DNA from: a virus | DNA length: 25,753 nucleotides | IMG/VR virus record: IMGVR_UViG_3300009593_000107 | Location: 1-25,753 of that record | Reading direction: 5' to 3' (one strand) | Part shown: positions 7,311-9,699 of the stretch, one piece after another | Layout of the letters: each line of letters starts with the position of its first letter | Position numbering within the stretch: position 1 is the stretch's first letter | The notes under the pieces: generated by a model | Told to the model about the DNA's origin: nothing | The model's database searches: none | What the model saw: only the letters and a program-made list of their open reading frames with translations | Program-made: the position numbers and the translations under genes

Positions 7311-8477
7311 ATGTCAGAACTACTAGAAAGTCGCTGGCAGGATACCAAAACTGCTCTTTTAGAAGGCCTTAATGGCAACAAAAAAGCTGTAATGGCAAGT
7401 ACTCTAGAAAACACACGCAAGTGGTTGAATGAGACTGCAACAGCTGGTTCTACAAGCGCCGGTAATGTAGCAACTCTAAATAGAGTTATCCTACCAGTAA
7501 TCAGAAGGGTCATGCCTACTGTAATAGCCAACGAATTAGTTGGTGTACAGCCTATGACAGGACCAGTGGGTCAAATCCACACATTAAGAGTACGTTACGC
7601 AGATTCATCTGATGGTAACGAAGTTGGTGAAGAAGCATTATCACCATTTAAGATCGCGGCGGCATATTCAGGTAACGCCACTGACGCAACACCAAAAGGT
7701 GGAGCAACAGCGGCACTTGAAGGTCAAGCAGGTAAGAGATTATCTATCCAGATCTTAAAGCAAACTGTCGAAGCAAAAACTAGAAAGCTATCAGCTAGAT
7801 GGACTTTTGAAGCGGCACAAGATGCTCAAGCACAGCAAGGCATCGATATTGAAGCAGAAATTATGGCGGCATTAGCCCAAGAAATTACTGCTGAGATCGA
7901 TCAAGAAGTATTAGCTTCTTTAAGAGCTTTGGCTGGAACGCAAAACCAACAAGCATACGACCAGAACGCTGTAAGCGGTACTGCAACATTCGTAGGTGAT
8001 GAACACGCGGCTTTGGCTGTGATGATCAACCGTGTTGCTAACAACATCGCACAGAGAACTAGACGTGGTGCTGGTAACTATGCTGTGGTATCACCACACG
8101 CATTAACTATCCTACAATCTGCAACAACTTCAGCGTTCGCAAGAACTACTGAAGGTGCATTTGAGGCTCCTACAAATACTAAAATGGTTGGAACATTAAA
8201 TTCAGCTATGAAAGTATATGTAGATTCATATGCCACTGATGCAACAGCAGTATTAGTTGGATACAAAGGTTCAAGTGAATCAGACGCACCTGCGTTCTAC
8301 TGCCCTTACATTCCTTTAATGTCAAGTGGCGTAGTACTAGATCCGTCTAGCTTTGAACCAGTAGTAAGTTTCATGACTAGATACGGATATGTTGAGTTAA
8401 ACAACACAGCATCTTCACTAGGTAATGCGGCTGACTACTTAGGTACAGTTACTATTGCGAACGTAACTTTTAGCTAA
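7311..8477 (+). CDS. 23: Major capsid protein (T4 gp23 family)
   Basis: The 388-residue HK97-fold shell protein. The block VIRRVMPTVIANELVGVQPMTGPVGQIHTLRVRYA (residues about 64-98) is the family signature of T4-like capsids. The motif ARWTFEAAQDAQAQQGIDIEAEI and the C-terminal FMTRYGYVELNN region are also typical. The N-terminus has candidate gp21 sites after E6, E18 and E41; cutting after LNE (E41) would give a mature start TATAGST, in the same place as the known cut of T4 gp23 relative to the signature. The protein is much shorter than T4 gp23 (521), so the extra inserted domain is probably small or missing. AAGGAG ribosome site. A strong terminator follows 31 bp after the stop. Confidence 0.98.
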   Translation: MSELLESRWQDTKTALLEGLNGNKKAVMASTLENTRKWLNETATAGSTSAGNVATLNRVILPVIRRVMPTVIANELVGVQPMTGPVGQIHTLRVRYADSSDGNEVGEEALSPFKIAAAYSGNATDATPKGGATAALEGQAGKRLSIQILKQTVEAKTRKLSARWTFEAAQDAQAQQGIDIEAEIMAALAQEITAEIDQEVLASLRALAGTQNQQAYDQNAVSGTATFVGDEHAALAVMINRVANNIAQRTRRGAGNYAVVSPHALTILQSATTSAFARTTEGAFEAPTNTKMVGTLNSAMKVYVDSYATDATAVLVGYKGSSESDAPAFYCPYIPLMSSGVVLDPSSFEPVVSFMTRYGYVELNNTASSLGNAADYLGTVTIANVTFS

Positions 8478-8508: not shown

Positions 8509-8538
8509 AGATAGGCCCTTCGGGGCCTATCTTTTTTT
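8509..8538 (+). terminator. Rho-independent terminator after the capsid gene
   Basis: A perfect 10-bp stem (left arm AGATAGGCCC 8509-8518, right arm GGGCCTATCT 8523-8532) is closed by a TTCG tetraloop (8519-8522) and followed by a T run to 8538. It ends the head-module transcript and separates it from the riboswitch cassette. Confidence 0.95.
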
Positions 8539-8541
8539 ATG

Positions 8542-8549
8542 GCTAAATA
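8542..8549 (+). promoter_or_regulatory. Late promoter variant (GCTAAATA) ahead of the riboswitch
   Basis: GCTAAATA differs at two positions from TATAAATA, and the same octamer recurs at 11790 ahead of a fibre gene. It lies between the terminator and the aptamer; using T4 spacing, +1 falls at about A8555, only 7 nt upstream of aptamer helix P1. The position supports real use, the mismatches weaken it. Confidence 0.55.
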
Positions 8550-8561
8550 CTAGTACAAAAT

Positions 8562-8605
8562 CGTTCATCCTATCTAGGACGGAAGTAGCATAATGCGAAG
8601 GAACG
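8562..8605 (+). ncRNA. L-glutamine riboswitch aptamer (Downstream-peptide / glnA class)
   Basis: The leader folds as the small three-helix glutamine aptamer. P1 pairs CGTTC 8562-8566 with GAACG 8601-8605. P2 pairs TCCT 8568-8571 with AGGA 8576-8579. P3 pairs GCA 8588-8590 with TGC 8594-8596. The conserved joining segments are present: CGGAAGTA at 8580-8587 and GAAGGAACGC at 8597-8606, both hallmarks of this class. Downstream-peptide RNAs are known ahead of short ORFs in cyanobacteria and marine metagenomes, and exactly such an ORF follows. The P2 5' strand with flanks (ATCCT 8567-8571) can also pair with AGGGT 8626-8630 in the ribosome site, a possible translation switch. P3 is very short, but the core is convincing. 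The direction of regulation cannot be read from sequence. Confidence 0.87.
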
Positions 8606-8633
8606 CACTCAAACTTTAACAGGGGAGGGTGTT

Positions 8634-8831
8634 ATGAACAGATTCGATCATTTACATAAACAGTACCGTGAGCAAAAACTGAGAGCTCGTAAAGAACGCA
8701 TATTAGCGAACAGCAGAGATGTTGTTGAGGTTAATGGCAATGGTACTTCTGGATATCGTATCAAACACGGTGAAAACAAAGATCGTGTTGCCGGTCATTT
8801 AACGGTTGATCATCCAAATAAGAAAATATAA
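8634..8831 (+). CDS. 65-aa basic protein under glutamine-riboswitch control
   Basis: A 65-residue basic protein: by my count 15 Lys/Arg plus 5 His against 8 Asp/Glu. The first half is a likely amphipathic helix with many Arg/Lys (FDHLHKQYREQKLRARKERI); the second half (NGNGTSGYRIKHGENKDRVAGHLTVD) looks like beta hairpins. It has a strong AGGGGAGGG ribosome site, 27 nt after the aptamer, and no partner genes. Short ORFs are the defining targets of Downstream-peptide RNAs. Cyanobacterial glutamine-synthetase inactivating factor IF7 is also a basic protein of about 65 residues, and glutamine riboswitches control IF-type genes in cyanobacteria, so an inhibitor of host glutamine synthetase is one hypothesis. 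I cannot show homology to IF7. A small virion protein is the alternative. Confidence 0.8.
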   Translation: MNRFDHLHKQYREQKLRARKERILANSRDVVEVNGNGTSGYRIKHGENKDRVAGHLTVDHPNKKI

Positions 8832-8906: not shown

Positions 8907-9150
8907 ATAAGCATTAGGAGAGTAATTAACTCTTAATTATAGTGCAAGGAAGAGCCCTTTACCAGAAGGGGCGAACTTGACTGTCCAGGGGTGGTACCCA
9001 GGGTTTGTAGTAGAAATACGCAGATTCACATCGCATTCACTAGCGGGGATAGGTTGTACGTATTAGAATGGTATTCCGGTACGTGCTTGTAGGTGTAACC
9101 AAGTCCTACCTATTTTGCTTATACTTTCCAAACCCACTTCCAATAACTTT
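8907..9150 (+). ncRNA. Candidate noncoding RNA between sigma70-like and late promoters
   Basis: No credible ORF lies here. Several local stems can be drawn: AGAGT 8919-8923 with ACTCT 8929-8933; CCCTT 8955-8959 with AAGGG 8966-8970 around a TACCAG loop; a GGGG..CCC hairpin near 8988-8999; and GAAT 9066-9069 with ATTC 9073-9076 inside a GTAC..GTAC closure. Purine-rich and C/G-rich patches are more frequent than in the flanking coding DNA. I saw no tRNA T-loop, no intron core motifs and no clear 3' terminator. It does not match an RNA family I can name. The call depends on the promoter and on the absence of coding, so it stays tentative. Confidence 0.4.
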
Positions 9151-9158
9151 GATAAATA
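9151..9158 (+). promoter_or_regulatory. Late promoter variant (GATAAATA)
   Basis: GATAAATA is one base from the T4 late element and the same octamer recurs at 20961. The T4 spacing puts +1 at G9164, which is the first base of helix P1 in the leader RNA. It drives the virion gene cluster that starts at 9253. Confidence 0.75.
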
Positions 9159-9163
9159 CTTGT

Positions 9164-9229
9164 GTCTATAGAGCGAGCCGCATTAAAAGGATTTTAACGG
9201 CGGACTTATGGGGACAGAACCCCGTAGAC
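9164..9229 (+). promoter_or_regulatory. Three-way-junction leader RNA of the virion gene cluster
   Basis: The predicted leader closes on itself. P1 pairs GTCTAT 9164-9169 with GTAGAC 9224-9229. P2 pairs GCCG 9177-9180 with CGGC 9198-9201 and continues, after a CA bulge, as TTAAAA 9183-9188 with TTTTAA 9192-9197. P3 pairs GGGG 9210-9213 with CCCC 9220-9223 around ACAGAA. The ribosome site AAAGGAG follows at about 9240. The structure could protect the 5' end of an abundant late mRNA, or sense something; I do not recognise a riboswitch class. The P3 hairpin with its CCCCGTA tail recurs at 13400. Confidence 0.6.
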
Positions 9230-9252
9230 CTAGAACGTCAAAGGAGAAACAA

Positions 9253-9699
9253 ATGGGAAGACCAATTAATAAAAGATTTTTCGGAACACCTACAGCAGGT
9301 GGAAACGAAATAAAAGTAGACTTTCATGATGGCTCAGCTGTTACTGAAGGTTATATCGTTAAACAATTAGGATCAAAAAAGTTCCGTGTTAAAGAAATCG
9401 GTGGCTCAACAGAGTACGATCGTTTTTTAACTACAGGTAAATTAGCTTCTGCACTTACAGGTACAGAAATGGCTATTACTGTAAAAGGTGACGACAACGA
9501 AACTTATCAAATTGAAAAGATTGCAGGTAGAAAAGCTACTGTGATTGCACCAGATGGTACAGGTTCAAATGCACTATCAGGAACATCATTATCTTGGACA
9601 TTTACAGCATCTGGTTCAGATGGAGCGGCACAGGTTGAAGAAGCTGGTGACGATGACACTAAAGCAGGTACTGATGACGACGATTTCACAAATGCGTAA
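9253..9699 (+). CDS. Virion structural protein (MGRPINKRFFG family)
   Basis: A 148-residue protein. I start it at 9253 because AAAGGAG lies just upstream and MGRPINKRFFG is a recurrent N-terminus of virion proteins in marine T4-like phages; the ATG at 9208 lies inside the leader hairpin. The body is beta-rich (VDFHDGSAVTEGYIVKQLGSKKFRVKEI, TYQIEKIAGRKATVIAPDG, SWTFTAS) and seems to hold two or three small barrels or sandwiches. The C-terminal 25 residues are strongly acidic (DDDTKAGTDDDD), probably flexible. First gene of its transcription unit; a hairpin without a T run follows. A capsid-decorating or tail-associated role is inferred from context. Confidence 0.78.
   Translation: MGRPINKRFFGTPTAGGNEIKVDFHDGSAVTEGYIVKQLGSKKFRVKEIGGSTEYDRFLTTGKLASALTGTEMAITVKGDDNETYQIEKIAGRKATVIAPDGTGSNALSGTSLSWTFTASGSDGAAQVEEAGDDDTKAGTDDDDFTNA

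Follow-up and report, generated by a model that had tools for sequence, protein, structure and literature searches.

A predicted glutamine-ON late switch on a phage version of a SAR11 small protein

A metabolite riboswitch directly behind the capsid gene of a virus raises the question of which gene it controls, in which direction it switches and what the controlled protein might do in the host. The window, namely the whole stretch of 25,753 bases analysed here, is a complete virus record (IMGVR_UViG_3300009593_000107) that probably represents a genome fragment. The gene for the major capsid protein (7311..8477), with 67-71% identity to jumbo T4-like phages such as Vibrio phage 2.275.O, lies directly 5' of the cassette and is followed, all on the plus strand, by a terminator, a late-type box, a glutamine-I aptamer, a Shine-Dalgarno sequence and an ORF of 65 amino acids. 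The intrinsic terminator of the capsid gene (8510..8538, GATAGGCCC / GGGCCTATC) was read directly from the sequence as a hairpin at 8510-8531 and a U7 run at 8532-8538. The putative promoter box GCTAAATA at 8542-8549 is a variant of the T4-type late promoter octamer TATAAATA (-10). TAAATA was found within 35 nt 5' of the aptamer in 75 of the 119 viral glutamine-I aptamers listed, compared to 8.1 ± 2.8 in shuffles, and at exactly 4 nt in 39 of these 75 listed box-bearing aptamers.

The aptamer (8560..8609) consists of P1 (8562-8566/8601-8605), P2 (8568-8571/8576-8579) and P3 (8588-8590/8594-8596). It matched RF01739 over the full length of the model (positions 1-53) with 59.5 bits, a gathering cut-off of 35 and an E-value of 5.4e-11, and all core nucleotides of the class are present. 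By covariance model, the element is a glutamine-I riboswitch, for which glutamine is the expected ligand. The original prediction of a terminator, a late-type octamer and a glutamine aptamer detectable by covariance model was borne out, while the Downstream-peptide form it had considered was rejected, as glutamine-II (RF01704) reached 22.2 bits, below its cut-off of 33. The aptamer ends 24 nt before the ATG of the ORF (8634..8831), and this 5' UTR contains the Shine-Dalgarno sequence AGGGGAGG (8621..8628, including GGGGAGG) within a covarying hairpin. When the leader of the window was folded as a lone RNA, the aptamer fold was not favoured and P2 paired with the Shine-Dalgarno region (z -1.15); this minimum-energy model is not informative. 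An alternative pairing of the Shine-Dalgarno sequence with the 5' strand of P2 was dismissed because it is not conserved among the relatives, as read from the alignment.

Two further RNA-like stretches were observed downstream. The one at 8914-9119 scored 45.1 bits against manA RNA (RF01745; E 3.7e-10), under the cut-off of 55.2, and has 71% identity to a stretch of phage Mosig that is itself over the cut-off at 64 bits. The other, at 9182-9255, resembles freshwater-2 RNA (RF02980), again under the cut-off (36 vs 49.9 bits, E 0.0013). It is preceded by a GATAAATA box at 9151 and has its 3' end at the ATG at 9253, which is probably the start of the following gene instead of 9208.

The expression platform hairpin P4 (8606..8631, C8606-C8610 with G8627-G8631) spans from the first base after P1 to just before the start codon and covers the 3' part of the Shine-Dalgarno sequence. 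A stem of at least 5 bp was present in 71 of 92 distinct leaders, compared to 40.4 ± 2.7 with swapped 3' strands and a maximum of 49 in 500 swaps. The strands covary across families with the combinations CAC/GTG, CAT/ATG, CAAT/ATTG, CGC/GCG and CTC/GAG. In the published structure of a glutamine riboswitch, the pair G23-C60 is formed only with glutamine bound, and C60 directly follows the terminal P1 pair C1:G59 (PMC11477058, PMC6698751). By this position, its equivalent in the window is C8606, with which P4 begins. Since the linchpin pair and P4 would use the same C, they are expected to compete, which predicts an ON switch. Expression of both type 1 and type 2 cyanobacterial glutamine riboswitches rises with glutamine (PMC6316151). 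The platform therefore suggests a glutamine-ON translational switch. Transcription from the late phage promoter would begin the mRNA a few bases ahead of the aptamer. Without glutamine, the ribosome-binding site would be partly hidden by P4 (8606-8610 with 8627-8631). Once glutamine is bound, C8606 would instead pair with G8582 as the ligand-dependent linchpin, P4 would become weaker and the 65-aa protein could be translated.

Relatives of the 65-aa protein (family F1, phrog_32989) were found at 49 loci in IMG/VR, 46 of them with the aptamer directly upstream. F1 directly follows the same capsid gene at 21 loci, while at least 23 aptamer-bearing relatives sit elsewhere in unrelated gene neighbourhoods, where the following gene is often encoded on the opposite strand. 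Given that the pair is kept in such varied surroundings, aptamer and ORF stay together when the location changes, and as the next gene frequently points the other way, the one small protein is the target. The ORF evolves under purifying selection, with dN/dS values of 0.07-0.40 in this family. No homology was found to DUF4278 or to entries of Pfam, NCBIfam or PDB, and comparison with ten IF7-like proteins encoded behind cyanobacterial aptamers yielded an hhalign probability of 0.4% (E 0.14), hence no homology to IF7 either. The AlphaFold model is weak (pLDDT 67) and suggests an N-terminal helix (5-27) followed by a beta hairpin. In one phage group (L043, 5233-6560), the genes after F1 encode a carbon-nitrogen hydrolase and an AlgH-like (DUF179) protein. 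Podo- and siphophages of Pelagibacter (L187, L189, L190) encode small proteins with the pattern NGNGT..Y..K.G and another N-terminus, apparently without an aptamer.

A pattern scan of IMG/VR yielded at least 120 stretches, whose aptamers were then confirmed with the covariance model. Among the 113 viral glutamine-I aptamers listed with a callable ORF, the next ORF had at most 70 amino acids in 105 cases (median 45 aa), a frequency biased by sampling with an exact core pattern. These small ORFs had a mean net charge of +5.9 (96% positive) behind the listed aptamers, and dN/dS was well below 1 for most pairs tested. A small ORF behind glutamine-I is thus the rule among marine phages. The arrangement had been called unusual and the ORF an orphan; both descriptions have to be given up in view of these counts, the frequent promoter boxes and the homologues in viruses and SAR11 genomes. 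The proposal of promoter, aptamer and one small protein as a unit was confirmed by its persistence in the F1 relatives across gene contexts.

The viral ORFs fall into several families without sequence kinship, namely F1, F2, F3, F4 and YRG. F2 (about 30 aa, W-C motif) takes in an unannotated 32-aa ORF directly behind the aptamer of Methylophilales phage Melnitz, and F3, with the C-terminal end SRPRxEKNxxxxDPRLQKI, takes in Mosig_00116 (51 aa) directly behind that of Pelagibacter phage Mosig. F4 ends with LPxYIxxNPYYP. The YRG proteins are kin to DUF4278, and psbA was found in this group, which identifies its members as cyanophages. In Melnitz (L002, 3999-4170), a Shine-Dalgarno sequence and the conserved 32-aa ORF lie 23 nt after the aptamer, with a dN/dS of about 0.2 against L077. 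Tandem glutamine-I aptamers 5' of a single small ORF were observed at L005, L006, L007, L011-L013, L060 and L123. In cells, a genome scan detected glutamine-I aptamers in SAR86, SAR116, SAR11 and other proteobacteria (L192-L310); this contrasts with a review limiting the class to cyanobacteria. The genes behind the proteobacterial aptamers, read by eye, encode glutamine synthetase, ammonium transporters (amt) and glutamate synthase, and the cyanobacterial ones precede IF7-like and YRG proteins. Some SAR86 chromosomes carry the aptamer with a phage-type small ORF beside ilv or sec genes.

Glutamine riboswitches in phages were already known (PMC9004378, PMC9964418). Melnitz and Mosig are marine T4-like phages with RF01739, like the window, and their riboswitch was published as tmRNA control (PMC9004378); with the 32-aa ORF so close behind the Melnitz aptamer, this target appears doubtful. 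Cyanophage S-CREM1 with its glnA and manA RNAs (PMC9964418) carries the same RNA families; its targets were left unresolved there, whereas the psbA-bearing contigs examined here point to a DUF4278-like YRG protein. The glutamine-I riboswitch (type 1, glnA; RF01739) of Synechocystis gifB/IF17 shares with the window the aptamer class, a platform close to the start codon and a small basic target, but the window differs by its phage late promoter and by a target without sequence kinship to IF7 or IF17.

Among 297 SAR11-family genomes, the F1 profile picked out 236 with a homologue, almost always a single copy; the best E-value was 1.6e-21. Phage and SAR11 proteins have the motif NGNGTSGYxIKxGxN in common. 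Among 289 genomes drawn from the Alphaproteobacteria, the homologue was present in two, both of the SAR11 family, and in none of the other 287. This distribution makes SAR11 the probable host, a conclusion drawn from gene content alone. By homology, the 65-aa ORF is a viral copy of the gene for a putatively nitrogen-linked small protein of SAR11.

These distributions also bear on other readings of the locus. A minor role of the protein in the virion or in head assembly, with glutamine control acquired by chance, would agree with the late promoter and with the 21 loci directly after the capsid gene; still, it is quite improbable given the aptamer-bearing relatives elsewhere and the single-copy gene on SAR11 chromosomes. 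That the phage aptamer is a passenger or decayed, with no ligand-dependent role, is hardly credible, as its core is invariant and P4 covaries over many unrelated small-protein families. An OFF switch deserves somewhat more weight, although it too is unlikely. Glutamine would then steady P1, which would stack on P4 and hide the ribosome-binding site, so that the protein would be made when glutamine is scarce. P1 and P4 indeed abut (G8605, C8606), and the secondary structure lets both coexist; however, the ligand-dependent G23-C60 pair takes the first base of P4, and in characterised riboswitches of either type, glutamine turns expression on.

In SAR11 itself, the aptamer was found at only two of the 30 F1 copies first examined, and anywhere in the genome in only two of 46 genomes. 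The other copies have a leader composed of a tandem pair of small H-type pseudoknots, both with a stem of 4-7 bp and a loop of 4-5 nt that pairs with a tetranucleotide past an A-rich linker. The unit was present in 37 of 37 leaders tested and practically absent from shuffled leaders. Loop and partner covary (CTAC/GTAG, CCAC/GTGG, TCAC/GTGA, CGAC/GTCG, TCGC/GCGA, TCTC/GAGA and AGTC/GACT). Five examples scanned against Rfam gave no match at E ≤ 1, and blastn against known phages returned chance-level matches only. A first viral search pattern was too strict and gave zero matches; the leader stands ahead of F1 at four phage loci (L048, L049, L427, L441). Much weaker SAR11 matches to F1 (MRDTK-type paralogues) have no RNA leader. 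The SAR11 candidate RNA ahead of HIMB5 RS05825 (PMC6429828) likewise precedes a SAR11 protein of unknown function; it was described with three hairpins and an internal loop in P2 and is set apart from the tandem pseudoknot by this text description, though the two may overlap.

In SAR11 genomes without F1, the tandem pseudoknot was found ahead of an F3 homologue. F3 was present in seven of 99 SAR11 genomes, all seven among the 31 without F1 (P 1.8e-4, ancestry ignored), and stood behind the tandem pseudoknot in six of seven, while phage F3 stands behind glutamine-I. Thus, F1 and F3 replace each other between SAR11 genomes, and the two leaders replace each other ahead of these unrelated genes. 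Two RNA leaders swapped on the same genes are the usual sign of the same or a linked signal. As both F1 and F3 show the same two leaders, the two RNAs presumably serve the same function. The tandem pseudoknot is accordingly put forward, tentatively, as a candidate for a further riboswitch class for glutamine or nitrogen status. It was absent from the SAR11 glnA and amt leaders, which weakens the case for glutamine as its ligand.

Upstream of SAR11 genes, a 13-base box GCATANCTGATAT (up to two mismatches) was found for glnA (7/8), amt (7/16) and F3 (7/7), counts that serve as a lead, since part of the sequences counted had also supplied the consensus. The box also occurs upstream of two F1 genes without RNA leader, with a background of 4.4% of 200-nt windows. 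It is possibly a nitrogen-regulon operator. The loci concerned are L351-L379, L462, L463 and L471-L477.

Taken as a whole, a glutamine-ON late switch on a phage version of a SAR11 nitrogen-linked protein is favoured with a probability of about 0.68. Late in infection, the phage would bring in a nitrogen regulator of the host type that is triggered by glutamine. Its nitrogen function is most likely, by analogy with the cyanobacterial inactivating factors (IFs) under the same riboswitch, to damp nitrogen assimilation of the host; the parallel lies in the same aptamer, a small basic protein and its induction by glutamine. Glutamine synthetase as the direct target is a rather doubtful guess.

Judged by the openly licensed papers searched, what is new is the rule of small proteins behind viral aptamers, the origin of the target in SAR11, the covariation of the platform and the candidate RNA class. 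With the nearest target being a tiny protein and not tmRNA, the Melnitz riboswitch can be reread. With either leader able to precede the same genes, the evidence points towards a riboswitch class that is probably new and for which a candidate ligand can be named. Among marine heterotrophs, SAR11 is the most abundant group (PMC10030771); according to a 2013 mBio paper as cited in PMC13198564, it has been reported to answer nitrogen limitation without PII. A glutamine-controlled small protein common to SAR11 and its phages would, if true, be a testable missing part of this nitrogen control and would give the virus a route to act on nitrogen use of its host late in infection.
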